DNA from: Candidatus Poseidonia sp.
GTDB taxonomy: Archaea > Thermoplasmatota > Poseidoniia > Poseidoniales > Poseidoniaceae
Reading direction: 5' to 3'
Length of the DNA stretch: 58,433 nucleotides
Assembly (NCBI GenBank): GCA_030741355.1
Contig: JASLVM010000006.1
Span: 1 to 58,433, forward strand
Below are positions 3,930-50,900 of this stretch, piece by piece. The notes under the pieces were generated by a model. The model was not told the DNA's origin. It did not search any database and saw nothing but the letters and a program-made list of their open reading frames with translations. The translations under genes and the position numbers were made by a program. Each line of letters begins with the position of its first letter. Position 1 is the first letter of the stretch.

Positions 3930-4943
3930 TTGAATTTGACAGAAATCCTGACTGCCCTTCAGGATTTTATGACCCAAGACGGGTCCATTTCCAACGAGCA
4001 GCGCGAATTTTACAGAATATTTTCGCAACACCTTCGGGGACACGACGGCGTGTTTACGGTTGAGGACATCGAACGCCTTTTGATGGAGGGAAAGAAGGAA
4101 GTTCCCAACCTCATCGATGAAGAATTTTTCAAGATGGGTGAAGCCATTTTGAACCGCTACAGAAACAAAAACGAGGACGCCATCAATGAACGCATTCGTC
4201 GTCTCGCAGAAGAAGAAGCACGAAAGCGCGCCATCGCCGAGGAAGAAGCTCGAAAACGTGCCGCCGCAGAAGAAGAAGAACGTCTGCGCAGGGAGGAAGA
4301 AGAGCGTATAGCCGAAGAGGCGCGTTTGGCCGAAGAGGCCCGTTTGGCTGAAGAAGCACGCATCGCTGAAGAAGCCCGCTTGGCTGAGGAAGCCCGCTTG
4401 GCTGAAGAGGCCCGTTTGGCCGAAGAGGCTCGTATGGCCGAAGAGGCTCGTATGGCCGAGGAAGCCCGTTTGGCCGAAGAGGCTCGTATGGCTGAAGAGG
4501 CCCGTCTGGCTGAGGAAGCCCGTTTGGCCGAAGAGGCCCGTCTGGCTGAGGAGACCCGTTTGGCTGAAGAGGCCCGCCTTGCTGAGGAAACCCGTCTTGC
4601 TGAGGAAGCCCGTTTGGCCGAAGAAGCCCGTCTTGCTGAGGAAGCACGTTTGGCTGAAGAGGCCCGTCTTGCTGAGGAGGCCCGTCTTGCTGAGGAGGCC
4701 CGTTTGGCCGAAGAAGCTCGCATTCAAGCTGAATTGGATGCTGGTGAAGCAGCGAAACAAGCGTACTGGGATGAACAAGAACTTCCAGGCGATGAGGCCA
4801 AAGTCGTCCCCGATCTCCCCGCTAGTGCTGCCCCTCTTCCCGAGGAAGGAGGCCGACGTGGAGGCTCCAAACTCAAATTCCTGGTGGTTATTGTGTTCGG
4901 GCTCATCGCTGGGGGAGCTGCATATGCGTACTTCCTCATGTGA
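3930..4943 (+). CDS. charged hexapeptide-repeat protein with C-terminal membrane anchor
   Basis: The product has 337 residues from a TTG start (MNLTEILTALQDF); an in-frame ATG at 3969 is the alternative. Residues 1-85 form a small helical domain. Residues about 125-267 consist of about 23 near-perfect copies of Ala-Glu-Glu-Ala-Arg-Leu (Leu sometimes Met or Ile, Ala sometimes Thr), preceded by Glu/Arg/Ala-rich sequence. A short Asp/Pro-rich linker follows, then a single membrane segment at the end (LKFLVVIVFGLIAGGAAYAYFL). The repeat should form one long, highly charged helix, possibly a rigid single alpha-helix or coiled coil. With only a C-terminal anchor, the body would lie on the cytoplasmic side if the protein is inserted as a tail-anchored protein. 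It follows the TPR gene; a structural or tethering role is an inference. Confidence 0.75.
   Translation: MNLTEILTALQDFMTQDGSISNEQREFYRIFSQHLRGHDGVFTVEDIERLLMEGKKEVPNLIDEEFFKMGEAILNRYRNKNEDAINERIRRLAEEEARKRAIAEEEARKRAAAEEEERLRREEEERIAEEARLAEEARLAEEARIAEEARLAEEARLAEEARLAEEARMAEEARMAEEARLAEEARMAEEARLAEEARLAEEARLAEETRLAEEARLAEETRLAEEARLAEEARLAEEARLAEEARLAEEARLAEEARLAEEARIQAELDAGEAAKQAYWDEQELPGDEAKVVPDLPASAAPLPEEGGRRGGSKLKFLVVIVFGLIAGGAAYAYFLM
4307..4726 (+). repeat. tandem 18-bp coding repeat (AEEARL units)
   Basis: About 23 tandem 18-base units of the type GCNGARGARGCNCGTYTG, each encoding AEEARL. Copies differ mostly at third positions, so the array is under protein-level selection and is not a fresh slippage product. 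It has no spacers and is wholly inside the reading frame. Confidence 0.9.
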
Positions 4944-18477: not shown

Positions 18478-20022
18478 ATGAAGACGAAAATGATGAGCGT
18501 GCTATTGGCTTTGTTCCTCGCCCTTTCCGCTGTTTCGGCAGCCTCGGGTGATGGATCCGACCCCCTCGACCCCTCAGACGGCGGCGCCGACTGGGACGGC
18601 GATGGTTTGACCAACGCTGAGGAGCAATCCCAAGGCACCAACATGAACAATGCAGACAGCGATGGCGACGGTCTCCCAGACGGATGGGAGGTTTCGAACG
18701 GACTGAACCCCACCAACGGTGGCGATGGAAACGCAGACCCTGACGGAGATGGCTTGACCAACTCCCAAGAGTATGCCTCGGGTACCAACCCGAACAACGC
18801 CGACACCGACGGTGACGGCAAGTCCGACGCAACCGACCAGTTCCCCAACGACCCCAACGACGGTGAGTACTCCGACTCTGACGGTGACGGTATTCCTGAC
18901 GCTTACGACCCAGACTTCCAGGAGTCTGGAGCAGGCGCAGGTAACGGCGACACCGAGGGCGGCGGCGAATCCGACGCTGGAACACCAACTCCTGGACAAG
19001 GTCAGGGACAAGGTCAGGGACAAGGTCAAGGACAAGGTCAAGGACAAGGTCAAGGACAAGGTCAGGGACAAGGTCAAGGCCAAGGTCAACAACAAGGCCA
19101 AGGTCAAGGTCAGCAAGGTCAGCAAGGTCAGCAAGGTCAGCAAGGTCAGCAAGGCCAGCAAGGTCAGCAAGGCCAGCAAGGTCAGCAAGGCCAGCAAGGT
19201 CAGCAAGGCCAGCAAGGTCAACAGCAAGACAACGGCCAAGGTCAACAACAGCAAGGCGGTCAACAAGGCGGCCAGCAAGGTGACCAGACCAGCCAAGACC
19301 AGAACGGTCAGAACCAGAACGGTCAGAACGAGCAACAGCAAGGTCAGACGCAGAACGGACAGCAGGGTCAACAAGGCCAGCAATCCGATCAGCAACAAGG
19401 CCAGCAGCTCGGCAACCAGGACGAGAACGACAACGATGGCGATGGTATCCCGAACGACGTCGACAACGACGACGACAACGACGGTATCCCCGACTCCGTC
19501 GATGATTCACCAATGGATCACGACAATGACGGCACCGACGATTTCGAGGATGATGACGCTGATGGCGACGGCATCGACGACCGCGAGGAAGTGAACGATG
19601 GCGACCCCAACACCAACATCTACGACCACGACAACGACGGCATCTCCGATGCTGTTGACTTGGACATCGACAACGATGGCATTGACAACCGAAATGACAT
19701 TGGCGACATGGGCGAAGACCTGTCCCGAGACCACGACAACGATGGTATGGACGACGCTGAAGACGACGACGATGACAACGACAACATCCTCGATGTTGAC
19801 GAAATCGACGGCGTTGCCGGAAGCTACCGCTACGACCATGACAACGATGGCATTTGGGATCTTACCGACAACGATGACGACAACGACGGTCTTATGGACT
19901 GGTTTGAAGTCAACGATGGCAACGATCTCACGGGTCAATTCGACGCTGACAACGACGGAACCGATGATTACGAGGACGACGACGACGATAACGACGGCAT
20001 CCTCGACATCTACGAACTCTGA
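18478..20022 (+). CDS. secreted TSP3-repeat calcium-binding protein with Gly/Gln linker
   Basis: The 514-residue product has a signal peptide (KTKMMSVLLALFLALSAVSA), then about 110 residues of TSP3/dockerin-like calcium loops (DSDGDGLPDGWEVSNGLNP, DTDGDGKSDATDQFPNDPND). A low-complexity linker follows (about residues 172-315), first GQ dipeptides and then GQQ tripeptides. The C-terminal 200 residues are more calcium loops of the DNDGDGIPNDVDNDDDNDG type. There is no membrane segment or PGF-CTERM tail, so it is probably released or held by another protein. Calcium should rigidify both repeat blocks. The next gene encodes a 2700-residue membrane protein with the same repeat type, a plausible anchor. 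The A-rich sequence before the ATG includes GGAAGTG as a possible ribosome-binding site. Confidence 0.85.
   Translation: MKTKMMSVLLALFLALSAVSAASGDGSDPLDPSDGGADWDGDGLTNAEEQSQGTNMNNADSDGDGLPDGWEVSNGLNPTNGGDGNADPDGDGLTNSQEYASGTNPNNADTDGDGKSDATDQFPNDPNDGEYSDSDGDGIPDAYDPDFQESGAGAGNGDTEGGGESDAGTPTPGQGQGQGQGQGQGQGQGQGQGQGQGQGQGQGQQQGQGQGQQGQQGQQGQQGQQGQQGQQGQQGQQGQQGQQGQQGQQQDNGQGQQQQGGQQGGQQGDQTSQDQNGQNQNGQNEQQQGQTQNGQQGQQGQQSDQQQGQQLGNQDENDNDGDGIPNDVDNDDDNDGIPDSVDDSPMDHDNDGTDDFEDDDADGDGIDDREEVNDGDPNTNIYDHDNDGISDAVDLDIDNDGIDNRNDIGDMGEDLSRDHDNDGMDDAEDDDDDNDNILDVDEIDGVAGSYRYDHDNDGIWDLTDNDDDNDGLMDWFEVNDGNDLTGQFDADNDGTDDYEDDDDDNDGILDIYEL
18993..19225 (+). repeat. tandem Gly/Gln-coding repeats (6-bp then 9-bp units)
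   Basis: A 6-base unit (GGACAAGGTCAG-like, encoding GQ) runs from 18993 and changes after about 100 bases into a 9-base unit GGTCAGCAA (encoding GQQ) repeated about a dozen times. Third-base variation is low in the 9-base block, so it may vary in copy number between strains. Confidence 0.85.
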
Positions 20023-20251: not shown

Positions 20252-23200
20252 ATGCTGTCAAAACAACACACTCAAAAAATCGAAGAGCGACAACAACTCT
20301 CCATGGCCATTATCATCGTGTTTTTGATGCTGGCCAGCAGCCTCCTCGCCATTGTCCAGACCGTTCACGACGGACCAGAAGCCACCAAAGCGACTCAACT
20401 TGTTGACGGCGGGAGCCTCGGCATGACCCCCATCCAATCCACGGACCAAGGCGGCCAAGGTGGATGGGACGGCGTCCACGACAGTCATTATGACATGGCT
20501 CACGAAGCCCTGAGGGACCTCATGTGGTCGGACCCAGGCGTTTCCGCTGGTGTCATCGTTGACCTTTCCGTTCTCGAAGCTGCCATCCCCTCGTATTCCA
20601 CCTTCCTCGAAGAAACCCGGGCCGGCGACCACGACAACGACGGTATCGACGACCTTGCCGACCTCGACGACGATAACGATGGCATCTACGACTTGCTTGA
20701 GCGATTCGACGGATGTTACGGAACCGACCCATACGACCACGACAACGATGGCATTCTCGATGTTGATGATTGGGACGATGACAACGACGGCATCCTCGAA
20801 GGGCCCATTGATTACGCCGCTCTTGAGGCGCAGGGCCTTGACCCACGAAACGTGTCCACCGACCGCTACCTCGACCCGACCATCGACCACCCTCACCCCG
20901 ACATCGGGGCCATTGGCAACTTCTACCTCGCGGACCAGAACCCCATGGACCACGACAACGATGGCGTGACCGACGAAGACAATGACGGTGCAGGCCCCGG
21001 CCGGTACGATGAGGACGACGACAACGACGGCCGGATCGACCAATTCACGTGGCCTTGCGATTTGGATTCGGACGGAATTTCGGACTACTTCGACGCCGAT
21101 GACGACAACGACGGCGTTCTTGACGTTGAGGACGCCCACCCCTACGACGCCAGCATCACCACTCAAATGTCTACGACGGCTTCTCTCTACGATGCCTCCC
21201 GACTTTGGACGTTCAACGAATACCGCCAATACTCTGGCGGCGTTGATTATGTTGACTGGGAGCGTAACAGAGTAAACGCTCAGGGCGCTACAGCCTCGGG
21301 CTTCTTCGGCGGCCTCGATGACCTCATCGAATTGAGTGACTCCCATGGCACTCCTGCTTTCATCAACATTGTTGACGGCGACCTCGATGGTGACGGCTCC
21401 CCCAACTTCCTCGACCCGGACAACGACAACGACGGTACGCCGGATTCGGCTGACACCGACGATGACAACGACGGCATTCTTGACATGGTTGACCCCGACG
21501 ATGACAACGACGGCATCCCCGATACGTGCGTTGAAATTGACACCAACGGCGACCAGACCAGCGATTACACCGGGCTTCAGAACGGGGCTGTGACAGGATT
21601 CACCATCTCGACGGGTGGCGCGAACTACAACAGCGGCACCGATGTTGCGACGGCGAACGCAGGGAGCACTGGAACCGGGTTGACCGTTGACATCACGACC
21701 ACGGCAGGCGCCATCACGAACGCCGTCATCAACCGGGCAGGTTCCGGATACAGCGTCGGCGACATCGTGACCGTCAACGGTGGCGATTCCAAGGGCAACT
21801 TGACCATCACGAGTGTTTCGACCGCTATTTTCGAACTTCCGGGTGGAGACGGTGATGGCGACGGGCAAATCGATTGTGAAATCGATTATGACGGCGATCT
21901 CGACGACGATATTCGTCGGCCGTTTGACCAGAACTACAACGGCATCTACGACTGGCTCGACACCGACATGGGTGGAACGACCTCCCCCGACAATCTCGGC
22001 AACTTTGCCGTTGGTGGCGCTGACATCCCGTACGATTTGGACAACGATAACATCGAGAACGAAAACGACTCGTTCCCGCTGAACACCGCGGCGGAAGTTT
22101 CCACTTGGAACTGCCCTACGCAAGCCAACCCCAACCCCACCAACCCCGACCCACGATGTCAAACCCGCCGCGCCTCTTTCTCACAATTCAACGATTGGGA
22201 CGGCGACGGTATCAGCAACTGGGACGATGTTGACGACGACAACGACGGCATCATCGACGTCTTGGACATCGACTGGGACTGTGACCTCGATAACGACAAC
22301 GACCTCCACCAAATCAACGGTGGGTTGTACCGGGACGATGGGCCCAATGATGTGGATTCTGACGTGGACGGAGACGGCCTTGAGAACAGCATTGACTGGG
22401 ACGACGACAACGACGGCATCGCCGACCTCTTCGACCCCGATGACGGAAATTGCGGCATCGTTGATTTCGACGCCACCGACGCCTTCGGCACACCTTACTA
22501 TCCTGTGAACGACGGTGGCGCCCTCGATGGGTCCAGCGACAGTCAACTCTACGATACCAACTCCACCGACCACTGGAACTTGGTGTTCCAGCACTACCCC
22601 TTCGCCGATGTGGTCCTCAACTACAACGGCTACGACTCAACCACCAACCCTCCCACACCAGGTATCGTGCCTGAATTCTACTGGTTCCTCTTCGCTCGTT
22701 GGTCGCCCTACAACGGCGGTAACGACTGGGATATTGATTCGGATGGTGATTCCCTCATCAACGGCTTGGACATCGATCAAGACGCCGACGGGATGCCCGA
22801 TTGGTGGGACCAAGACGAAGGAAACGACGGTGTTTTGGATGTTGAGGACGTCAAGATGGGCGGTTCATTCGACCTTTCAACCTGCGGTTGGACGGCAGGA
22901 AACCTCGGGCAAGGCTTTGTTTGCGGCTACGCCTATGCGCTCGCATACAAGATGCCGCTCAACGGCGTCAACGCTCAGTTTGGTGCTCCTTACTCCACCC
23001 GGCCAGACGCTGCCTTTGACCAAGGCGCCACCGCCGGAGGTCCGTCAGGCAATTGGAGCTGCACTCCGGTTGAAGGCATCGGCTGCTGGCACTACGACTT
23101 CGGTGGCGACGGCACCATTGACTCTGCCATCACCTACACTCAGATGACCGATAACCGAGACGCATTCAACTCCTGGATTGGTTTGACCACTGGCATCTGG

Positions 23201-26200
23201 CAGTGGAACAGTGACAACGGCCCCGAAGCCGACTTCCCCGATGAATTGGGAGCCGACCTCCTGAAGAACGATGTCGATGGAGACGTTGACGGTGACTTCA
23301 CCAACTCCACCATCGATTTGGACGATGATTACGACTCCATCTTCGACTGGTTTGACGTGGATGACGACAACGACGGTGTATGGGATTACTTTGAGGTTGA
23401 CAGTAACTTCGACCTCGACGACGACACCGGCCAAAACAACGGGAACTTCTTCTCCGGGTCCAACTGCGATGACAACGACGATGACGGAAACGACGCAGAC
23501 GCCGATGACGACGGCTTCTACCAAGCGGTTTGGGACCAAGGAATCATGTCCCAAGGCCTTCGCCAACCAACCCTCTATGACGTTGACAACGACAACGACG
23601 CCATCCCTGACGGGGAAGATCCCGACGACGATAACGACGGTCGTTTGGATGTTGACCAAGAACGCCTCCCCGGTTGTTTCTGGGGCGAAGAACAGTCCAC
23701 ATGGGACAACGACAACGACGGTATCGTGAACTGGGCTGATGATGACTGGGACGGCGATGGCTTGACCAACGCTGCTGAACTTCTTGTGAGCATCACGGCG
23801 CCGTTTGACCACGACAACGATGGCGTCCGCGACGACCTTGACGAAGACGACGATGAAGATGGCATGCACGACGAAGACGAAGTGTTGCTTTGGCCCACTC
23901 GCTTCGACCGCAATTCCACCAACCCGTGGGACCACGACGACTTTGGCGACGGGGAAGCGCTTGCGAACCCGCTCGATGACTCGACGGGACCGGACGCTAT
24001 CGACAACGATGACGACAACGATACTCGAATCGACGTGGACTTTGACCAAACGGAGGACACCGAATTGACCTCTGACTGGGACAGCGACAACGACGGCATC
24101 TTGGACGCAGACGACAAGGCACCCACCTACATCACGCTCAATCTCCCCGATAACCTGTGGCTTGACGCACAAAGCCCAACCATCTTTGCCGGGCATGTTG
24201 ACTGGTTGAACCCGGTTACCGGCGTGGTTGAAGCGGCACCGCAACTTCCGGTTCAGGTGCACATCGAATGGGCGGACAACCAAACCACGGCTGTTGAAAC
24301 GATTGACGTCTTGACCAACGCAGCTGGAAACTTCAGCGTCGGACAATTCCTCTATCCCGAAGATTTGACGGTGGGCGATAACACGACTTACCGCGTCTAC
24401 GCAGAAGTGACGGAGATGTTCCTGTTCAACGGAAACGAGTCGCAGTCCTACTATGTCGGTGCTGAGGCCAACATGACCGTCGATTACTCGGCGTGGACCT
24501 ACTTCCGCAGCGATGAGCAACCGTTCTGGCTTGACTTCAAGGCCCACTATGCCGCTGACTGGGACCGAGGATTGTTTGACAACCGAATCAAGAACTCCCC
24601 CATCACCTTCTCCATCTTCGGTGGACTGTTTGGCAACCTAACCGCCCCCACCAACTTCACCGGTTTGGGTAACAACGGCTACCGAACGGACGCTTCCGGA
24701 TGGGCTTCACTCACCTTCGTTCAGGACTTGGGTATCGCTGGCACATGGAAGCAAGTGCAGTGGAATTCCACCGCCGACAACGGCGTTGGCCAAATCCCGG
24801 GTGGCTACGAAGAAATCGGATGGAACGATTTGACCAAGCAGCATGACGTGGTCCTCGACGGCGACGGCAACCCGTTGCGGTACAATTACACCAACACGAG
24901 TCTACCCGCAGGCGACATCGAAATCATTGCGCGTGTTTCACCCGAATTGGCGAACGAATGGCCGTTCCCGTTCCTGAATGGCGACGAGGCTGAACCGTTC
25001 TCTGTTCGCATCATGCACCGCATGAACATCGAGGGAACGCTGATCGTTGATGGCCTGAGCCCGATTTACTACTACGACTCCACCGTCAACAACGGTGACG
25101 GAACCTTTGGCGACTGGTCGACTCTGTTCCATCAGCCTGCACTGACCGCAGCCGGTGTCAACTACAACGATGTGGCCGCCTTCAAACCGTATCCAAAATC
25201 ATGGGACGGTACGCCAGAAGGTTTGACCGGTCAAGCAGCAGCTCTCCGACCGTTCCTCACTGGAAACGGCAGCCACTGGTTCATCGCTTTGGTGAACGGC
25301 GGCGACAGCAACCTGCCGCCTTGTGGACCTGTGGACCGAACGGACCCCAACAGCCCTGTTCGCTGTGAGATTGTCCCCGAAATGAACACGGGCGAATCTC
25401 TCCAAGTCGTTGGAAAGGTCACCAACCGCACCAACGAACCGTGGGACCAAGACCCGATCGCTCTGCAAGTTGACGTTGACAAGAACGGCCAATTCCTCGG
25501 CGCTGGTGAGACGGCTTACACGCAACGCCCCATCATGAAGGACGGCGATGCAGCCTACGATTACAACTGGTCTTGGTTCAGCCAATACGGTGCTGGAACC
25601 TACGGGCTCCGTGTCGACTTCACCAACTCTGCCTACTACTTCACCGGCAACTCATCGACGTTGGCTCCAACGGGTGCGTACATCAACGTCACCGTGGTCG
25701 GTACCACCGACTTCCAGACAACCTCGTTGCCTCGCCTTTACAGGAACACCAACACCACCATTCAGGCGAAGTTGGTTGACAATTCACTTCAACCGGTTCG
25801 AAACGCTCCGGTCAACTACACCTGGTCCTTTGACGGACGCACGGGCGTGAACTTCACAGACAACAACGGTTTCTTCGAAATTCCGTTCAATGTTTCCGCC
25901 ACCGACGACCTTGGCAACTTCACCTTGCAGTTCGAATACTCCGGAACATCACTCCTCAAAGGAACCTCAGTGAGTCAGTCGGTCTGGGTCGTATCTCGGA
26001 CCTACATGCAGGTGATTTCAACCGAAGACAACCTGCGGCGTTCGGGTGATAAATGGGATTTCACCGCTCAAGTATCGGACGATAACAAGACGAGTATACG
26101 GGATTCAGGAGGCACAGCGCTTTCAGGTTCCGAAACGCCTTACGGCGGTTTGGTTGATGTCATCTTCGAAGGCACGGACTTCCAAGGCACGTTGCACCGA

Positions 26201-28354
26201 CAGGTCGTGGCTACACTGGCGCCGAATGCCGGTGTGATTTCGCTTCCAGAAGTTGAACCGGATGGTTCCCACCTCTGTTTCTACGACGGCAACGGCGACA
26301 ACATCCCCGACCGAGACATCGACGGTGATGGTTTGGAGGTCGAGGAAACCGTTGGATGTTTGAAGTCCAACATTTCACCACTCAACCCCGCCTTGCTACG
26401 AGCCGACCCCGAATCCTTCTTGCCGAATGGATTTGGTCCAGTGAACGTGATTTTGCGATTCCAAGAGACGCTGCCCAATGAGGGCTGTCAACCACTTGAC
26501 GTCAGCTACCTTGGCATTCAAGGAGCATGGGACCCGTGTACTCAAATTCCTGGAAACGACCACTTCCGACTTACGATGACCAACAACGCCAACGGCTTCA
26601 ACCTCATTGGCCGCACCGTCATGTCGGTTGACGACCAAATTGTCTACACCAGCGAAATCGACCCGCTTACGGGTGAAGTCGTTCCCAAGCCAATGATCGT
26701 CACCGGGCAACTCAGCGATGAGTTGGGCGTGAACCTGACCGATCGAAGCATCCGCGTCAATTACGAGATGGTGAACGGTCAAACCGGTCCCGTCGCATGT
26801 CAATCCGGCACCACCAACGCTGACGGTTACTTCTCCATCATCTGTCCGCTCTCGGACGTGATGGCTGGTAAAGCCAAGGTGACGGTCTCGTACTCGGCTT
26901 ACGACAACAACGACGCCTACCGATACGAGAACAAGACGGTCCAAACCGAGTTCGACGTCTTCTCCAACTCTACGTTGCAGATCACCGAAGTTGGGCCGTT
27001 CAAGTCCAGCGTTGACCAGTGGGTTGCTCCGAACGGTTCTCGCTATCCAGTGTTGTACCTGAAGGAGTCGTTCCACATCGACGCGTTCCTCGCTCAGTCC
27101 AACGGACAGGCGGTTGGCGGTAAGTGTCTCAACATCTACCTCGACCCCGATGAGAACGTTCGCCCGCTTGCCACGGTTCGCACCAGCGACATCGATGGAA
27201 GCGTGGAATGGTTCAGCGGCGACCCTGTGCAAAACCCAACCTTGCGAGGCGTGGAAACCACCGGTGGTAAACTGGAAGGTTTCCGTACGCTCCAAGTGGC
27301 GTTTGAGCCCGACCGGAACATCCCCGGAGGTTGTGATAAGGACAGCAGTAACGCTCTGAACGGTTCAGCCATGAACATCGAAGTTCTCGTTCGTTCACGG
27401 GTTGACCTGCAAGTCAAGCAGACCTGGAGCAATAGCGGCGCCAACGGCGCCGATGAAGGCGACCTCATCACAGGACAAATCGCCCTCCTGCGCGACCGTC
27501 TTGACCTCGCTGTTGAGAACGAAGAAGTCATCTTCGCCTACGAATTCTTTGATGATGAAACCGGCACATGGGTTGTCTCTGATTTGAACAACAAGACCCG
27601 AACCAACGAGCAAGGTATTGCCTCCTTTGAATGGAGTTTCGTTGGTCAGAGTTGCGATGGAAACCCGTGTTCCGGTGTTTGGCGAATCACGGCCTATTAC
27701 CCCGGGTCGACGTACTTTGCACCATCACAGGACAACATCACGCACGAAATCACCTACAAGAAGGCCGAAGCCTTGGGCGACGCCAGTGGTTTGTTCAGCC
27801 CGAGCAACCTGATTGGTTTCGCCATCGTCTTGATGGCCTTGTTGATTGCAGGTGCGATCTATTACCAGCGAGTTCAGCAACAACGCCAGGTCCAAGCGCT
27901 CCGTGGTATTCTGACCGATGCCATGATGCAACTTGAAGCCAGCAACGAATACATTGCTGCCATCTTCGACTGCTACAAGAGCCTCGTGAAGCACTTCAAG
28001 AAATACGGCTTCATGAAGAAGGTCTACGAAACAGCACGTGAGTTTGAAGCGGCTGTCCGTTCGGCCTTCAACATGGTGCCTGTTGACCAATTGGATGACT
28101 TCCTGTCCATCTTTGAAGAAGCCCGATACTCCGAGCACACCATCGACGCAACGCATCGAGACCGTGCGCTGCAAACCCTCGGTGCCATCACCAACTCCTT
28201 GACGATGGCTCTGGGCGAAGAGTCGGTGGTCAAGCGCATCGATGCGACCAGCATTTACGACAACCTGACCAAGGCCGGCGAATTCGTCGCAGCAGACGGT
28301 TCAGTCCGCCAGGCTGGTATGGTTGAAGGCGAGAACACGGACTTCAAGATTTGA
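20252..28354 (+). CDS. giant TSP3-repeat surface protein with C-terminal membrane segment and DUF4129-like cytoplasmic domain
   Basis: At 2700 residues this is the largest gene in the window. A signal/anchor (AIIIVFLMLASSLLAIVQT, about residues 19-37) is followed by a long array of TSP3 calcium loops to about residue 1285 (DHDNDGIDDLADLDDDNDGI and many variants). The array is interrupted at about residues 443-526 by a Gly-rich repeat domain (AGSGYSVGDIVTVNGG). Residues about 1290-2480 look like Ig-like or beta-sandwich modules (several Cys pairs, LVDNSLQPVRNAPVNYTWSF). One membrane segment (LIGFAIVLMALLIAGAIYY, about 2517-2535) precedes a cytoplasmic tail with YKSLVKHFKKYGFMKKVYET and DFLSIFEEARYSEHTID, resembling DUF4129. 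It is a calcium-dependent cell-surface filament or adhesin. GAGGTG lies 8 bases before the ATG. Confidence 0.85.
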   Translation: MLSKQHTQKIEERQQLSMAIIIVFLMLASSLLAIVQTVHDGPEATKATQLVDGGSLGMTPIQSTDQGGQGGWDGVHDSHYDMAHEALRDLMWSDPGVSAGVIVDLSVLEAAIPSYSTFLEETRAGDHDNDGIDDLADLDDDNDGIYDLLERFDGCYGTDPYDHDNDGILDVDDWDDDNDGILEGPIDYAALEAQGLDPRNVSTDRYLDPTIDHPHPDIGAIGNFYLADQNPMDHDNDGVTDEDNDGAGPGRYDEDDDNDGRIDQFTWPCDLDSDGISDYFDADDDNDGVLDVEDAHPYDASITTQMSTTASLYDASRLWTFNEYRQYSGGVDYVDWERNRVNAQGATASGFFGGLDDLIELSDSHGTPAFINIVDGDLDGDGSPNFLDPDNDNDGTPDSADTDDDNDGILDMVDPDDDNDGIPDTCVEIDTNGDQTSDYTGLQNGAVTGFTISTGGANYNSGTDVATANAGSTGTGLTVDITTTAGAITNAVINRAGSGYSVGDIVTVNGGDSKGNLTITSVSTAIFELPGGDGDGDGQIDCEIDYDGDLDDDIRRPFDQNYNGIYDWLDTDMGGTTSPDNLGNFAVGGADIPYDLDNDNIENENDSFPLNTAAEVSTWNCPTQANPNPTNPDPRCQTRRASFSQFNDWDGDGISNWDDVDDDNDGIIDVLDIDWDCDLDNDNDLHQINGGLYRDDGPNDVDSDVDGDGLENSIDWDDDNDGIADLFDPDDGNCGIVDFDATDAFGTPYYPVNDGGALDGSSDSQLYDTNSTDHWNLVFQHYPFADVVLNYNGYDSTTNPPTPGIVPEFYWFLFARWSPYNGGNDWDIDSDGDSLINGLDIDQDADGMPDWWDQDEGNDGVLDVEDVKMGGSFDLSTCGWTAGNLGQGFVCGYAYALAYKMPLNGVNAQFGAPYSTRPDAAFDQGATAGGPSGNWSCTPVEGIGCWHYDFGGDGTIDSAITYTQMTDNRDAFNSWIGLTTGIWQWNSDNGPEADFPDELGADLLKNDVDGDVDGDFTNSTIDLDDDYDSIFDWFDVDDDNDGVWDYFEVDSNFDLDDDTGQNNGNFFSGSNCDDNDDDGNDADADDDGFYQAVWDQGIMSQGLRQPTLYDVDNDNDAIPDGEDPDDDNDGRLDVDQERLPGCFWGEEQSTWDNDNDGIVNWADDDWDGDGLTNAAELLVSITAPFDHDNDGVRDDLDEDDDEDGMHDEDEVLLWPTRFDRNSTNPWDHDDFGDGEALANPLDDSTGPDAIDNDDDNDTRIDVDFDQTEDTELTSDWDSDNDGILDADDKAPTYITLNLPDNLWLDAQSPTIFAGHVDWLNPVTGVVEAAPQLPVQVHIEWADNQTTAVETIDVLTNAAGNFSVGQFLYPEDLTVGDNTTYRVYAEVTEMFLFNGNESQSYYVGAEANMTVDYSAWTYFRSDEQPFWLDFKAHYAADWDRGLFDNRIKNSPITFSIFGGLFGNLTAPTNFTGLGNNGYRTDASGWASLTFVQDLGIAGTWKQVQWNSTADNGVGQIPGGYEEIGWNDLTKQHDVVLDGDGNPLRYNYTNTSLPAGDIEIIARVSPELANEWPFPFLNGDEAEPFSVRIMHRMNIEGTLIVDGLSPIYYYDSTVNNGDGTFGDWSTLFHQPALTAAGVNYNDVAAFKPYPKSWDGTPEGLTGQAAALRPFLTGNGSHWFIALVNGGDSNLPPCGPVDRTDPNSPVRCEIVPEMNTGESLQVVGKVTNRTNEPWDQDPIALQVDVDKNGQFLGAGETAYTQRPIMKDGDAAYDYNWSWFSQYGAGTYGLRVDFTNSAYYFTGNSSTLAPTGAYINVTVVGTTDFQTTSLPRLYRNTNTTIQAKLVDNSLQPVRNAPVNYTWSFDGRTGVNFTDNNGFFEIPFNVSATDDLGNFTLQFEYSGTSLLKGTSVSQSVWVVSRTYMQVISTEDNLRRSGDKWDFTAQVSDDNKTSIRDSGGTALSGSETPYGGLVDVIFEGTDFQGTLHRQVVATLAPNAGVISLPEVEPDGSHLCFYDGNGDNIPDRDIDGDGLEVEETVGCLKSNISPLNPALLRADPESFLPNGFGPVNVILRFQETLPNEGCQPLDVSYLGIQGAWDPCTQIPGNDHFRLTMTNNANGFNLIGRTVMSVDDQIVYTSEIDPLTGEVVPKPMIVTGQLSDELGVNLTDRSIRVNYEMVNGQTGPVACQSGTTNADGYFSIICPLSDVMAGKAKVTVSYSAYDNNDAYRYENKTVQTEFDVFSNSTLQITEVGPFKSSVDQWVAPNGSRYPVLYLKESFHIDAFLAQSNGQAVGGKCLNIYLDPDENVRPLATVRTSDIDGSVEWFSGDPVQNPTLRGVETTGGKLEGFRTLQVAFEPDRNIPGGCDKDSSNALNGSAMNIEVLVRSRVDLQVKQTWSNSGANGADEGDLITGQIALLRDRLDLAVENEEVIFAYEFFDDETGTWVVSDLNNKTRTNEQGIASFEWSFVGQSCDGNPCSGVWRITAYYPGSTYFAPSQDNITHEITYKKAEALGDASGLFSPSNLIGFAIVLMALLIAGAIYYQRVQQQRQVQALRGILTDAMMQLEASNEYIAAIFDCYKSLVKHFKKYGFMKKVYETAREFEAAVRSAFNMVPVDQLDDFLSIFEEARYSEHTIDATHRDRALQTLGAITNSLTMALGEESVVKRIDATSIYDNLTKAGEFVAADGSVRQAGMVEGENTDFKI

Positions 28355-28447
28355 AGCCCCCATCGGTGAAGTGCCGAGGTCCACTCAGCGTAAGCAAGAC
28401 CCGCTGAAGCCTTAACCTTCAAAGGCTGGAGGCCTGTGTGTTGGTTC

Positions 28448-28891
28448 ATGGACGACTGGAAGGCGCTCATTGACCAAGCCATGCAAATTGAAACGACCGA
28501 CACCATCGGAGCCCACGGGATGTACGAACACGCTGTTCGAGCGGCCCTCGCTCAGTCTCAGATGTTGCTGGGCGATTTGGAAGCCGCTCAAATCATCGAA
28601 TCCATTTACGGTGCTTTGGTGGCTTATTCACAGACCGTCATGCTTCGCATGAAAGCCGAAGACCCCGAGCCAGGGAGCGCCGACCACGCCTTCCGTGCTG
28701 GGCAAGCCTACGGCGTTAGCTGCATTCTGAACCACCTCATCGATCGCTTGACGGACGTTGCTGGCATCACCGCCTTGGGCGCTCTTGACGACTTTTCCGA
28801 TACACTCCACGACGAAATCATCGTCCAAGCCCGCGCGGCCGGTTTGATGGTTGAGTTGCTTGATGCGAAGGGCGAAATCCTTCTTGAGTGA
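28448..28891 (+). CDS. small helical hypothetical protein
   Basis: A 147-residue soluble protein, mostly helix (MDDWKALIDQAMQIETTDTI, AALAQSQMLLGDLEAAQIIE, DDFSDTLHDEIIVQARAAGL). No motif, signal or membrane segment is visible. It begins 90 bases after the giant surface protein on the same strand. The frame opens 4 codons earlier at a GTG (28436); a GGAGG precedes both. I chose the ATG. Function unknown; position beside the surface protein could mean a linked cytoplasmic role, for example contacting the DUF4129-like tail, which is only a guess. Confidence 0.6.
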   Translation: MDDWKALIDQAMQIETTDTIGAHGMYEHAVRAALAQSQMLLGDLEAAQIIESIYGALVAYSQTVMLRMKAEDPEPGSADHAFRAGQAYGVSCILNHLIDRLTDVAGITALGALDDFSDTLHDEIIVQARAAGLMVELLDAKGEILLE

Positions 28892-30639: not shown

Positions 30640-33600
30640 ATGGCGCCACCGCAACGCCAGTTCATGCGACAAGGTCGTGCACTGAGCATGGTGACGCTTC
30701 TCCTGACGGTTCTCCTTCTCCCAATGGTGAGTGGAGCGGACAGTACCGTATCGACCAACACCACGTGGTCGGGAAACATGGTCCTTACCGGTAATGTGAC
30801 CGTTGCTAACGGTGTGACGCTGACCGTTTCCCCCGGAACCAGCATCGACGCCAAATCCTACGCCATCGTTGTCGAAGGGACACTGGTCGCCGACCAGGCT
30901 TCGTTTTACTCTTCCATCGTTCCGGAAACACAGGGGTCTCACGGTCAAGGGCTATGGCCCGGCCTTGTGATCGAATCAGGTGGCCAAGCCAATTTGACCG
31001 AAGTTACCGTGGCCAATGCTTCTGCTGGTGTGCTGGTTCGAGGTGCATTCAACGGTTCAGACGTGGTGTTCAACGACGCTTATCGTGGTCTTTCGGTGAT
31101 GGGCGGTCATGCCGTCGTCACTGGCTTTGAAGCAAATAGAATGGATTACGAAGCGCTGTATGTCGAAAGCGGTTCGCTTGATTTGAACAACGGAACGGCC
31201 ACGGAGGTGGCGGTTGGCCTGGCCAATTACGCCACGGCAAACCTGGTGGAATACACCGTTAATGAGGCGGGCGTTGGTGTTCAATCGTACGGTGGAACAC
31301 TCGACCTTAACGGCCTTGGTGTTTACAACGCAAGCGTTGGATTTGCTACCGCATCGGGGGCTTCGTCCTCGGTTCAGACATTCATGGGGAGCGGTCTGGC
31401 GTTGGCCATTGACGCTGGCGATGCCGATGATTTTGAAATGCACTTTGCACGCTTACAAGGCGAACGAATGGTGCTTGGCCAGAGCGTTTCTTCATTGCAC
31501 TTCGATGATGTTGAATTTGTATCTACATCCTCTACGGAGATGCGGCCGGTGTTTGATGTCAGTTGTGACGGCTTTTGCAAGCTGGAAAACAGCCTCATTG
31601 AGGGCGAGCCGCGCCTGGGAGCCTCTTGGTCGGGCATCGGAACATCACAGATGACGAACGTGTCCATTTTTGCTGCTGAGCAAGCGGTGGAAGCTACGGG
31701 CAGTGGCCATGCGGAATGGACAAACCTGACCGTTAACGCCTCTCAAACCGGCGTATCGGTTCAAACACCGACGAGTACGCTGTCTAACATCGTGGTTGAG
31801 CTGACATCAGCCGATGGCGTTGGCGTGGACGTTCTTGGCGGTGTGCACGATTGGGGGACCGTCACCGTGGAGAAATCCTTCCTTTCAACCGACACGACCT
31901 CCATCGGGTTGAAGGCATGGTACAGCGACCTTTCCATCGGTCATTTCACCTCGCGAAACACCTCGACCGGCATGATGTTGGAAGACAGTTCGGCGGTGGC
32001 CCAAACCGTTGAAAACAACATCGGAAGCCTCGTCGGCGTCCATCTGATCGATTCCACTTACCGTGGCTCGGACCTCACCACCATCGCACAGGACGAAGGC
32101 GTACTGATGGAAGGGGAAGCCGACCTCCACCTTTCGTCCTGGACGGCCCAACTTCACGACACACCTCTGATGATGTCTACAGGGAGCACCGCCATCGTCC
32201 GTGTGTTCAACCCGTTGAACACCGCTCCCACCTCTGCTGATGCGCTTGGCGACGGTACGCTGTATTACGGCTCAACCTACAATCCAACCATCAGCACATC
32301 CGCTTCCTATCGTTTGATTGAAACGGACGTCACTTTCACGGATTTGGCCGCTCAGCCGGTTGAGGCTCACGTTGTCGTTCACGGTTTTGCCTTGATGAGC
32401 AACAGCAACGGGGCTCTCACCGTCCCGCTTGTGAACAGTGGCTCGGTGGTCGACGCCACCCTGCAGGGTGCAGGGGTCCGCGTCACCCTTTACGGCGGCC
32501 AGACCGGTCAATCCGTTCAAGTTCCCGTGATTCCACAAGGAGACTGGACCATTTCTTCTGGTCAAGACGTCGTCCTCGGCCCTCGGCCCGACGGTCAACC
32601 CCACCAACTTTCAGGGGATTTGACGGTCGCCAACAACGGGGCTTTGACCTTGGTTTCTACGGATGTGACGTTGGCTCCAGGACAGACGATTACCGTGGAA
32701 GGTACGGGCCAACTCATCGGAGAAGACGCCACCATCACGGCCGACGCCCTCCAAGCCAGCGGCCAGAGCGTGTTGACCGGGACCGATTCTGCTTCACTCA
32801 CGCTCGACATGAACGTTCAATGGGGATGCTTGAGCGACCGGGAAGTGCAGCACCTCAACATCCTCGGTTCACTGGTTGTTCAACCGGGATGCGAGATCGA
32901 CATCATGGGCGGAAGCGTAGAAGGGACCATCACCGCCATGACGGGAGCCGTGTTCACCAGTTCGTCAACGCTTGACCTTGTGGTGCTGGACAAAGGCGAA
33001 CCGGTTGAAGGCGCTCTGATTTCCATTGAAGGAGCGGTTGCGATGACCGATGCCAACGGCGAACTGTCAACCGAAACCGTCGCACGGAGCGTCACCGATG
33101 TTGGTGAAACGTGGGAAGGCATCAAGACCGTTACCCTTCAACGCAACAACTTCTCTGACTTCGTCACATGGGACACCAACCGTTCACTGACGCACACGTT
33201 CATGGCGTCCACGGTACCCAGCGGCGAAATATCAGGCTGGCTTGTCCTCGAGCGCCAGTGGAGCCCCTACACGTTGGACCACTCTCTTGTCCTGCAAACC
33301 GCTTCCACCATGACCGTCCAAGACGGCGTCTCCCTGCGAATTTCAGAGAGCGCTACCATCACGGTGAACGGGGTGCTTGATGTCGGCGAAGCCACCCTCT
33401 CCTCCACGGGCTTTGGTGCTCGATGGGGCGGTCTTGCTCTCGGACCTTCAACGGCCGCCGTGATTGAACTCTCGGGGTCGCAACTGATTGAGTCTGCTCC
33501 AGCGTTGACCGTTTCTGGATTGGGTTCCGTCCAAGCGGACGGCGTGTTCATGGCGCGTTCCGCAAGCGACCCGTTGGTCGTGGTAGAATCCGGAAGTGCG

Positions 33601-35331
33601 GCCTCGTTGGTCGTTCGAAACAGCCACCTGCAAAACGGGAGCGGCTGTGCCCAAATTTACCCCTCTACCGGGTTGATCACGTTCAGCAACGTGAGTTTTG
33701 CCGATTGTGAAGAACAAGCGATTTGGGCGCAACAAGCCCCCTTGGATTTCTCCGCGTTAACGTTGGCGGAGGGTACGAATTGGGGCTTGGAGTTGACCGG
33801 TGTTTCAGGCTCGGTCAACGGCGTAGATGCAACCCAATTTCAAGGAACAGGCCCCATTCTCTCGTTGAACAGCATCATGTCGGATTTCTCGCTGACCGAC
33901 GTGGTGGGGACGGTATCGGGTCAAGCCGGGATCGTTGGTGAGAACAACGAAGACATCACCGTTGAGCGAGTTCATCTCACGGGTGCTCCCGCCATCGATG
34001 TCGACCGAACATCCGGCCTCTTCTCCGACATCACGCTGGAGGGAGAAGGCAGCGGCACCGCCTTCATCTCTCATCACGGTCGTTCATCGGATTCGCTGGT
34101 GGTGGAAAACCTCAACATAACAGGATACAATGTCGGTGTTTCGCTTCATTCGGACCCTGGTGAAATCAGTGCACCGTTGGTGCTGCGCAACGCCCACATC
34201 GTGGTCTCAAGCGCTTTGGCAACGGAAGAATTCCCGGTTCGCATGGAGTCTTGTTCCCTCGTTGGCGGGGTTGATGTCGCCTTCACCGAGGTGGTTTCGG
34301 TGGACGGTCAAGTCGGGACGGTCTCGGTCAGCGAGGGCGGTGAATTCTCGGCCTACCGCACGATGGTGCTTGATGCACAGCGAGCAGGAGTGCCGGTTTT
34401 GGCGACGTTTACGGTCGGTTATGGAAACGAACTTCTCGAGTCCTTCAGTATTCAAGGCACCACCGTCGATGTTGAACTTCTGTTGCGCACCATCACGGAA
34501 ACAGAAGAATCGGTGGCTTCCGAATGGGTGGTGCAGGCCGCAGTGTCCGGTTCACCGTTGGCCGAAAGAACGGTGGAATCGCCCGTGGCGGCCCCGTCGC
34601 TGTTGGTCATCACCGTTTTGGTGAACCAACCGCCTGTGGTTCAGTTGGTTGAACCCTACGCCGGTCAGCGCGTGATGGAAGGGGATTTCATCCGAGCCTC
34701 TGCTACGTTTACCGATGACATGGACGGTGACGGTGACTTGGTCATCTCTTGGCGGGTGTACGACCTCGCGGGCGTCACTGTGTCGCAAGCCGGAAACGAA
34801 CCCGTGTTCAATATCACGGATTTGACGGCTGGATTCTACATCGTGGAGGTCACGGTGACCGATACTTACGGAGAACAAGCGACGGCTTCCATGGACTTCG
34901 AATACACCTTGTTGGATACCGATAACGACTGGTCTTCATCGTGTTCATCGGACACGTGGTTTGACCCCAACACCGGGAAATCCTGCGGACCGAACATCTA
35001 CGACCAAGACGATGATAACGACGGGTTCAGCGATGAAAAGGACGCGTTCCCACTGGACCCTTGCGCTCAAATTGACACCGATGGCGATACCCAGCCCGAT
35101 GATTTGGACTGTCCCGACGGCTTCACGAGCTGGTTGACCGAGGACATGGACGATGACGGTGATGGAACACCGGACGTGTTGGAGGGCACCGAAACCAACG
35201 ATGCTGATGTAGACGTGAACGGACTGATGGTGGTCTTGGCCCTCTTTGTGGTCGTCGCCCTGCTCTTCTTTGCCCGTCTGCGCCGCGGGGGTCCGGGCGA
35301 CTTGACCTCGCTTGATCAACAACACCTCTGA
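30640..35331 (+). CDS. large beta-helix surface protein with TSP3 repeats and C-terminal membrane anchor
   Basis: The 1563-residue protein starts with a signal peptide (SMVTLLLTVLLLPMVSGA). From about residue 45 to 1290 it repeats short hydrophobic strands with Asn/Gly/Ser turns (GNMVLTGNVTVANGVTLTVS, then GTLVADQASF), the look of a right-handed parallel beta-helix of the pectate-lyase/CASH type seen in carbohydrate-binding and adhesive proteins. A PKD- or Ig-like module follows (about 1325-1425), then TSP3 calcium loops (DQDDDNDGFSDEKDAFPLDP, about 1447-1520), and a final membrane segment (LMVVLALFVVVALLFFARLR). So it is anchored in the membrane with its body outside the cell. A polysaccharide-binding or lyase role is possible, but no catalytic residues were identified. 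It begins 51 bases after tRNA-Pro. Confidence 0.82.
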   Translation: MAPPQRQFMRQGRALSMVTLLLTVLLLPMVSGADSTVSTNTTWSGNMVLTGNVTVANGVTLTVSPGTSIDAKSYAIVVEGTLVADQASFYSSIVPETQGSHGQGLWPGLVIESGGQANLTEVTVANASAGVLVRGAFNGSDVVFNDAYRGLSVMGGHAVVTGFEANRMDYEALYVESGSLDLNNGTATEVAVGLANYATANLVEYTVNEAGVGVQSYGGTLDLNGLGVYNASVGFATASGASSSVQTFMGSGLALAIDAGDADDFEMHFARLQGERMVLGQSVSSLHFDDVEFVSTSSTEMRPVFDVSCDGFCKLENSLIEGEPRLGASWSGIGTSQMTNVSIFAAEQAVEATGSGHAEWTNLTVNASQTGVSVQTPTSTLSNIVVELTSADGVGVDVLGGVHDWGTVTVEKSFLSTDTTSIGLKAWYSDLSIGHFTSRNTSTGMMLEDSSAVAQTVENNIGSLVGVHLIDSTYRGSDLTTIAQDEGVLMEGEADLHLSSWTAQLHDTPLMMSTGSTAIVRVFNPLNTAPTSADALGDGTLYYGSTYNPTISTSASYRLIETDVTFTDLAAQPVEAHVVVHGFALMSNSNGALTVPLVNSGSVVDATLQGAGVRVTLYGGQTGQSVQVPVIPQGDWTISSGQDVVLGPRPDGQPHQLSGDLTVANNGALTLVSTDVTLAPGQTITVEGTGQLIGEDATITADALQASGQSVLTGTDSASLTLDMNVQWGCLSDREVQHLNILGSLVVQPGCEIDIMGGSVEGTITAMTGAVFTSSSTLDLVVLDKGEPVEGALISIEGAVAMTDANGELSTETVARSVTDVGETWEGIKTVTLQRNNFSDFVTWDTNRSLTHTFMASTVPSGEISGWLVLERQWSPYTLDHSLVLQTASTMTVQDGVSLRISESATITVNGVLDVGEATLSSTGFGARWGGLALGPSTAAVIELSGSQLIESAPALTVSGLGSVQADGVFMARSASDPLVVVESGSAASLVVRNSHLQNGSGCAQIYPSTGLITFSNVSFADCEEQAIWAQQAPLDFSALTLAEGTNWGLELTGVSGSVNGVDATQFQGTGPILSLNSIMSDFSLTDVVGTVSGQAGIVGENNEDITVERVHLTGAPAIDVDRTSGLFSDITLEGEGSGTAFISHHGRSSDSLVVENLNITGYNVGVSLHSDPGEISAPLVLRNAHIVVSSALATEEFPVRMESCSLVGGVDVAFTEVVSVDGQVGTVSVSEGGEFSAYRTMVLDAQRAGVPVLATFTVGYGNELLESFSIQGTTVDVELLLRTITETEESVASEWVVQAAVSGSPLAERTVESPVAAPSLLVITVLVNQPPVVQLVEPYAGQRVMEGDFIRASATFTDDMDGDGDLVISWRVYDLAGVTVSQAGNEPVFNITDLTAGFYIVEVTVTDTYGEQATASMDFEYTLLDTDNDWSSSCSSDTWFDPNTGKSCGPNIYDQDDDNDGFSDEKDAFPLDPCAQIDTDGDTQPDDLDCPDGFTSWLTEDMDDDGDGTPDVLEGTETNDADVDVNGLMVVLALFVVVALLFFARLRRGGPGDLTSLDQQHL

Positions 35332-36361: not shown

Positions 36362-38614
<2,253 letters not shown>

Positions 38615-47924: not shown

Positions 47925-50900
47925 GTGATTCGACGTCAGTTCCTTGGTCTGCTCTTTGTTTTCCTCTTCATCGCGCCAGCCTGGTCGGTGATGTTTGCTC
48001 AAGCAAGTGGCGGCAATATCGCCACGTTCTCGACGGGCAATGCGGAGGAAACCGTTGTCATCTCTTCCGGCCAGCACACCTCCCTCGGATTTGACCTGAA
48101 CCGAAACACCACCATCACCTCAGCTTCCTTTTTCATCAAACCCGCCACCACGGGTTCATCTGTGGGGGCCGTCGACATTGACGCCAATGCAGACGGCGTT
48201 CCCGAATGGTCGTTCAACGATACCGGCTACGGTGATTTTGGACATCAAACCCTGTTCACCAACGGCAACACTTCGGCGTCCCTCTCCATCAACCCGAACC
48301 AAGGAGCCGTGACGAATCCCGACTCTCCCCCGTTTTACTTGCCCTCAGGATCCACCGTCTCCAGCTCAACCCTTGAAATCGGCTTCTCACCTACGCTCAT
48401 CGGTGGATTCTATTCAACGGGCTACATCCATGCCGTTGACAAGGGCGATTTCAACAACGACAGCAACGTGGATTTCGCCCTCCTCTCGAGGACCGCCAAC
48501 GTCTCATCGGGCAACACCACTCAGCCCGGGCAAAGTTCGGTTGCGGCCTTCCGAGTTGCCTCCTATGACAACAACACAGGCATCACGCTCTCGTCTTGGG
48601 TGACCACTTGTGCCAACGCCACGCGGATCATGGCCGCCGACGTCAACGGTGACTCGTTTGATGATGTGGTCGGTTATGCTCCAGCCGACGACCAACTGTG
48701 CATCCATTTCACAAACACCACCAGCGGGGGCTTTGAGCCTCAAGTGAACGTAACGCACGTTTCGTCCATCATCGACTTGGCGTTTGGTGATTTTACTGGA
48801 AATGGCCTGGACGAGATGGTCTCCATTCAATCAAGCGGGAAGGTGTCTGTCGACCAGTTCAGCAACCGCACAAACGCCTTTTCAAACCGGGATTACACCA
48901 CGGTGAACATTGCAGGCACCGCCAACCCTGCCACCTTAACCCACATGTTGTTCGCTTATTTCGACGGACCTAACAACCTCCCCTCGCTGGTTGCTTGTCA
49001 ATCAAACGGCGCCGCCGACATCATGTTTTGGTCAACCACCACCGGCACCATCGCCACCGGTAGCAGCCTGACGGGCGTCTCATCCGACGCCGTTGTGGGT
49101 GATTTCGACGGGGACCAAGATTTGGACATCGTCGCCTCTACGCCAAACGGGCATCGCTCCATTGAAAATCGAGGCGGCACAGGCTGGGACGGCGATAGCC
49201 ACAACCGCCTCATCACGTTGACCAACGCCACCGTTCTCGATTACGATTTGGACTCTGCTTCTCATCTGCTCATCCCGAACGTGGGGACCGTCGACGCAAA
49301 TCCTGCCACCTTCACCGGCAACATCTCGGCTTACGGGTTCCAAAGCGGCTGGAATTACGACAACCGTGTTCGAAGCCAGACCACCGATGTATTCGAGCCG
49401 TGGACTTCGCCGCGAGCCATTCATTTTGGTGATATGGACGGTGATGGCTCCATTGAACAACTGATTCTCGCCGGAGAAGGCAGCAATCACGGTGTGTTCA
49501 TCTCAGCCTACCATCGCATCGGCTACGACATCGACAAGGACGGCGCCGTTGACGTTGAAGCGGGAGGATACGCAGGCAACGGCAGCAACGGTTTGAGTCC
49601 ACTCATGCTTCAAGACACCACGGGGAACTTTACCACGTCCTTGAACGTCCTTTCACCAGGTTTGCCTTACACCTCTGACGGTTATGGCACCCAAATGGCA
49701 GCGGTGAACCTCTCCATGCATTCCATCACCCAAGGGTCCTTCACCTTCGACAATTTGGACATTCGCTACGTCGCCAATTTCCTGGTCAACAGCAACCCTT
49801 CGCTCTCTGGAAACTTGAGCAATGTCCTCAATCAGCAGATGACCGCAGGTTCCGGTACCCTCCACGTTCCTCTTCATATCAACACAACTTCGAACGGAAG
49901 TGTGGAACTGTTCAGCCCGACCGTGGCTTATGTTGACGGCGCGCCGAACATTGCGTTGCCACCCACACCCGTGCTCACACTTGTGGACCTCGAGCCCGAC
50001 CGCGTCGTCATTGAATGGCAACCCATCACCGAATTCGGTGACGACCTGCTCGACTTCGTTGTCTATCGTTCGGTCATGGGCCAACCGTTGAACATTGAGG
50101 CTCCAATTGAAAACACCTTTTCCAACAACACCATTGACACCGGTGTACAACCGGGTCAGTCGTGGACCTATTGGGTGCAAAGCGTCCACAGCTTCGGCAT
50201 CACGAGCAACATTTCGGCGCCGCTCAGCGTCACTGTGCCCTACCCCGCGCCCAAATCCTTCATTCCCAACTTGACAGCGACGGACGTGCCGAACGACGAA
50301 GGTGGCGCCATGAACATCTCCTGGAGTGCCGGGGACGAGTCCATCGTGGAACACCACGTGTTCGTTCTGCCGTCAACATTCAACGATGTGAGTGGCCAAA
50401 CCACAACCATCACGGCAGAAGCGAACGCCACCTCCGTTGAGATTACGCAGGACAGTACGGGGACCCCCCTCGTCGATGGAACGCCGTACTTTGTCGCTGC
50501 CATCGGCGTGGATGTGTACGGTAACGCTTCAATGAACGTCACCGCCATTGGGCCAATCTACACTCGGAACGACACGAGCTTGACCACGACCTTGGACGTG
50601 GTCTACACCGACTTCACCCAAAACGAACTGACCGAGACGGTTCTGCTGGCCCGAACCAAGGGGCTGGTCGTTGAGGCGGACCTCCATCAAGCAGGAACAG
50701 CGATCGCCAACGCCACGCTGACCCTCACCATCACCGACGATGAGGATTCGTTCATGTTGGACATGACCACGGACGAAACGGGTCATGCCTCGCTGACCGT
50801 TGACGCATTGTCCAGTCTTGGTCCCATTGAGGCCTTGGGCGCCATGTCGCTCTCCGTGAGTTATTCCGGCAGCGAAGGCGATGAACAACACCAACCTTTG

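Follow-up and report, generated by a model that had tools for sequence, protein, structure and literature searches.

The question raised by the locus described here is what a DUF4129 domain does at the C-terminus of a giant surface protein. The DNA comes from an archaeon of the Poseidoniales (Marine Group II), and the window, namely the whole stretch of DNA that was analyzed, has a length of 58,433 nucleotides. To our knowledge, no function has been assigned to the widespread families DUF4129, DUF58, and DUF4350, and most MoxR ATPases are without a known substrate. The initial annotation had described an open reading frame at 20252-28354 on the forward strand, and both the frame and the three peptides quoted from its tail are present as described. 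The features of its product, hereafter referred to as giant A, and of the gene upstream are as follows.

18478..20022, forward strand: upstream secreted protein with calcium repeats (TSP3) and a long Gln/Gly repeat (TSP3_bac match; synteny)
20252..28354, forward strand: giant A, a 2700-aa single-pass surface protein with DUF4129 at the C-terminus (open reading frame, translation, Pfam)
20291..20371, forward strand: N-terminal signal/anchor segment, residues 14-40 (hydropathy)
20627..24109, forward strand: acidic region of calcium-type repeats (DxDxDGxxD), residues 126-1286 (motif counts versus shuffles; conservation)
24149..27751, forward strand: Ig-like/CarboxypepD_reg-like stalk, residues ~1300-2500 (subthreshold CarboxypepD_reg, MG2, and MG4 matches)
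27785..27874, forward strand: single transmembrane segment, residues 2512-2541 (hydropathy; helix in the AlphaFold2 model)
27971..28180, forward strand: DUF4129 domain (PF13559), residues 2574-2643 (Pfam, conservation, AlphaFold2 helical fold)
28112..28132, forward strand: FEEARYS motif, residues 2621-2627 (invariant in 14 giant A sequences)
28271..28318, forward strand: A-specific conserved C-terminal peptide KAGEFVAADGSVRQAG, predicted to form a β-hairpin (conservation, AlphaFold2)

Hydropathy analysis of giant A revealed two membrane-type segments, the signal at residues 14-40 and a second at 2512-2541, which agrees with the single segment previously placed near residue 2525 and leaves a short tail on the cytoplasmic side. 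Between residues 126 and 1285 there are 19 strict DxDxDGxxD motifs, and ~1,170 residues are repeat-rich. The looser pattern [DN]x[DN]x[DN]G occurs 37 times as compared to a mean of 2.7 and a maximum of 8 in 200 shuffles. On the basis of these motifs, the repeats would be expected to bind calcium. In a Pfam profile search they gave no match to TSP3_bac (PF18884), a model that is matched by both the paralogue of giant A (hereafter B) and the protein encoded upstream. Conserved inside the repeat region is an insert rich in Trp and Cys (residues ~736-1040), and AlphaFold2 returned no confident fold for residues 725-1045 (pLDDT 34). The stalk fold classes of the CarboxypepD_reg, MG2, and MG4 type score above the Pfam cut-offs in relatives. 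Orthologues are present on 31 genome contigs. Between G000 and G037, which belong to different families, giant A shows 54% identity over 2520 residues and the DNA ligase of the window 52%, so that the level of conservation of giant A is close to that of a housekeeping enzyme. The ligase (36410-38614, forward strand) is of the NAD-dependent, bacterial type, here in an archaeon.

The secreted protein at 18478-20022 is encoded upstream of most A genes for which the flank is present, including one from the other family (L068); the synteny check revealed no homologue upstream of A in G037 (L085) or in L017/L020. It is a candidate extracellular partner of giant A. Several public contigs have their start within its repeat. 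Downstream, ahead of the L18e-L13-S9 ribosomal genes, giant A is followed by an uncharacterized protein of 151 aa (28436-28891, forward strand) that is conserved in L067. Other products encoded on the forward strand of the window include a large surface protein of 1563 aa with a weak β-helix match and a C-terminal membrane segment (30640-35331), a second of 1442 aa with FG-GAP repeats (47925-52253), and a protein in which a long (LAEEAR) repeat, probably forming a coiled coil, precedes a C-terminal membrane segment (3930-4943).

The initial annotation had judged the tail to be close to DUF4129 and had named a profile search as the means of deciding. The similarity was indeed found, with PF13559 scoring 28.6 bits against the whole protein (E 1.6e-6) and 33.9 bits against the tail alone (E 3.3e-8), relative to a Pfam gathering score of 24.8 bits; in the genome-wide profile search the value was 35.6 bits. 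The domain lies C-terminal to the membrane segment. In an alignment of 40 diverse tails, Y68, T87, E90, E115, and Y119 (alignment numbering) show no variation, and F114, A117, R118, and S120 show almost none, a set that spans the FEEARYS motif. Close relatives of the giant A tail are up to 95% identical. The AlphaFold2 model of the tail, with a mean pLDDT of 77, consists of a long membrane helix followed by a helical DUF4129 domain, with pLDDT values of ~74-89 in blocks of ten residues, and, in A, a C-terminal hairpin across the conserved KAGEF..DG.VRQAG peptide. The KAGEFVAADGSVRQAG peptide occurs in one copy genome-wide, and the tail alignment revealed no counterpart in paralogue B. A Foldseek search of the PDB with the tail gave nothing significant, the best hits being to four-helix bundles (E 0.08), and sequence searches of the PDB gave no convincing match. 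In the literature searched, DUF4129 is not mentioned in combination with archaea, an absence that is no proof of novelty.

Paralogue B, with 2976 aa from its start codon (G000:C50; L064 10574-19504, reverse strand), carries Transglut_core, TSP3, and Ig-like domains together with the same kind of DUF4129 tail. A profile comparison of A with B aligned the tails at E 1e-23 and, elsewhere, mainly Ig-like regions. Where the contigs are long enough, there are usually two giants per genome, with frames of ~2700 and ~2990 aa, and the single-contig genome G053 has exactly two DUF4129 giants. DUF4129 was found in 38 of 38 relatives searched and in exactly two copies in 32 of 39 genomes. The Transglut_core match in B reaches 58-65 bits. 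In all seven aligned sequences the Cys is kept and the HAW motif lacks its catalytic His, and the Asp is lost in most; two other transglutaminase-like proteins of the window genome retain both GDC and HAW, and relatives outside the order mostly retain Cys and His. B is thus likely, as judged from these residues, to be a pseudo-enzyme. Giant A gave no transglutaminase match in Pfam, and TgpA_N was matched by neither A nor B. A transglutaminase hidden in A was also considered and rejected, given the lack of a Pfam match and an A-B profile alignment limited to the tail and mainly Ig-like regions.

The likely partners of the tail are indicated by gene order outside the Poseidoniales. In a sister family of the same class, presumably Marine Group III, 21 of 21 fetched giants are directly followed by DUF4350-MoxR-DUF58, these loci representing two orthologous operon types rather than 21 independent events, and several of the giants being cut by contig ends. 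Among other Thermoplasmatota, the same order occurs in L130, and in L118 and L120/L132 it occurs without a detected DUF4350. The search for cytoplasmic partners by co-occurrence suggested in the initial annotation pointed to DUF58, which was found in all 144 DUF4129-positive genomes among 293 of the phylum. Outside the class, DUF58 is present in 56 of 56 DUF4129-positive genomes versus 37 of 149 DUF4129-negative ones (56/0 versus 37/112, Fisher p ~1e-25, a value that ignores phylogeny). The 37 genomes with DUF58 and no detected DUF4129 indicate that DUF58 has other uses. A chance or compositional match to DUF4129 in giant A is ruled out by the cut-off, the conservation, and this co-occurrence.

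All of the partner families (MoxR, DUF58, and DUF4350) are found in the window genome in copy numbers that match the giants. It has two strong MoxR and two DUF58 genes arranged in two cassettes, the first of which (C61) reads DUF4350-DUF58-8-TM protein and has its presumed MoxR at a separate place (C56), and the second of which (C39) reads DUF4350-MoxR-DUF58-5-TM protein. Pfam confirms MoxR (AAA_3 plus lid) and DUF58, and places DUF4350 above the cut-off in cassette 1 and below it in cassette 2. Two copies of DUF58 are present in 36 of 39 genomes and two of strong MoxR in 32 of 39, with DUF4350 also mostly present twice per genome among relatives. The giants are not adjacent to the cassettes in the window genome and are likewise unlinked in the Poseidoniales genomes examined. 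The fifth cassette gene encodes a polytopic membrane protein, predicted to cross the membrane 8 times in one cassette (L081 10666-11883) and 5 times in the other (L082 8346-9269), and its products are related between the two cassettes and match nothing in Pfam or NCBIfam. Pairing of the giants with particular cassettes by gene trees was set aside because of conflicting signal: the DUF4350, DUF58, and DUF4129 trees lean toward A with cassette 2 via the L130 operon, but the MoxR tree does not.

In bacteria, TgpA-type proteins are neighbors of MoxR and DUF58: PMC6803598, citing Wong and Houry 2012, describes MoxR-DUF58-transglutaminase clusters, and tgpA is co-transcribed with PA2875-PA2874 (PMC3507681). 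As in TgpA/YebA (TgpA_N, Transglut_core, and DUF4129), the DUF4129 tail of giant A is C-terminal to a membrane segment, MoxR and DUF58 occur in the genome in giant-matching numbers, and the operon order is kept in the sister family. Giant A differs in its lack of TgpA_N and transglutaminase, in having one membrane segment plus a signal versus six helices, and in an ectodomain of ~2,400 residues built of calcium repeats and Ig-like domains. The PFNA cluster of Bifidobacterium (pkb2, fn3, aaa-atp/MoxR, duf58, tgm) likewise ties MoxR, DUF58, and a transglutaminase-type membrane protein to an FN3-type extracellular protein (PMC6803598). In that cluster, however, FN3 protein and transglutaminase come from two genes, whereas in the giant the ectodomain and the DUF4129 tail form one polypeptide, and the cassettes yielded no Pkb2-type kinase. 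The thrombospondin type 3 repeat proteins of Poseidoniales, for which adhesion has been suggested (PMC6461757), resemble giant A in being secreted and in having DxDxDG calcium-type repeats, although those of giant A fall below the Pfam TSP3_bac model. The literature searched held no link of such proteins to DUF4129 or MoxR/DUF58 and nothing relevant on Poseidoniales with an S-layer or with giant proteins, which is no proof of novelty.

Two proteins combine TgpA_N (above the cut-off in L136, subthreshold in L127) with Transglut_core, TSP3, and DUF4129 in one chain, and thus provide a link between classical TgpA and the giants. From their domain content, the giants look like descendants of a TgpA-type transglutaminase whose ectodomain was turned into a calcium/Ig rod. 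The enzyme decayed, leaving a fold without the catalytic His in B and none in A, whereas both the tail and its partners persisted.

Taken together, we lean modestly toward the view that giant A, along with B, is the TgpA-derived DUF4129 component of a MoxR-DUF58-DUF4350-DUF4129 system, with a rod outside the cell and a tail that docks the partners. The rod would form a calcium-stabilized surface structure, to which the secreted repeat protein of the neighboring upstream gene may contribute. On the cytoplasmic side, the helical tail would provide a docking site for membrane-anchored DUF58, which would recognize it and bring the MoxR AAA+ ATPase, with DUF4350 alongside in the membrane, and MoxR/DUF58 would then power the assembly, maturation, or turnover of this surface protein. 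As chaperones, MoxR ATPases with VWA-type partners remodel or mature their substrates. The link of the tail to MoxR, DUF58, and DUF4350 can be proposed from the genomic evidence; the physical docking, the ATP-driven remodeling, the direction of action, and the calcium dependence are inferred. A fuller version, which we put forward tentatively, holds that the two giants lack transglutaminase activity, evolved by the swap of a transglutaminase for a calcium rod, and are assembled or released from the inside out by dedicated MoxR AAA+ motors acting through the DUF4129 tail.

Other explanations must be weighed against this docking model. The giant could simply be an adhesin or S-layer-like protein that depends on calcium and is anchored in the membrane, its DUF4129 domain an inherited anchor uncoupled from a MoxR/DUF58 pair now acting elsewhere. 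The separation of giants and cassettes in the Poseidoniales genomes examined would fit such an arrangement, as would the report of thrombospondin genes as an adhesion trait of the order (Rinke et al., PMC6461757), but the tail holds invariant cytoplasmic residues over deep divergence, giants and partners agree in copy number, and the operon is kept in the sister family; we regard it as possible but doubtful. Less probable still is a mechanical or chemical sensor, in which force or calcium on the rod would alter the tail and signal from the outside in via MoxR/DUF58. The single-pass topology, the long rod, and the conserved cytoplasmic domain would suit this role, which also shares the partner evidence with the docking model. 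A Pfam search of the cassettes, however, revealed no kinase, receiver, or other signaling domain, and known MoxR-VWA systems are maturation chaperones. That the giants are working TgpA-like transglutaminases that cross-link surface proteins is very improbable: the Transglut_core score of B speaks for it, whereas A has no such match and B has lost its catalytic His throughout and its Asp in most sequences.

The earlier reading of a DUF4129-tailed giant that connects an external calcium-dependent filament across the membrane to a cytoplasmic partner is supported. The link stands, and its partners can now be named as MoxR AAA+, DUF58, and DUF4350 from the sister-family operon order, the copy numbers, and the co-occurrence. 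In place of the presumed filament, what is seen is an ectodomain resembling a repeat rod plus an Ig stalk, and calcium binding is read from the motif only. New relative to that reading are the naming of a partner set, a likely origin in evolution, and the enzyme's loss.

With tail and partners kept and the enzyme lost, this lineage separates the two roles, and this points to coupling to the outer surface, rather than transglutaminase chemistry, as the function under conservation. The giants are a candidate component of the cell surface, itself poorly known, of an archaeon that is very abundant in the ocean and without a cultured member. Through them and their ATP-driven partners, the cell may act on its own outer surface from the inside.
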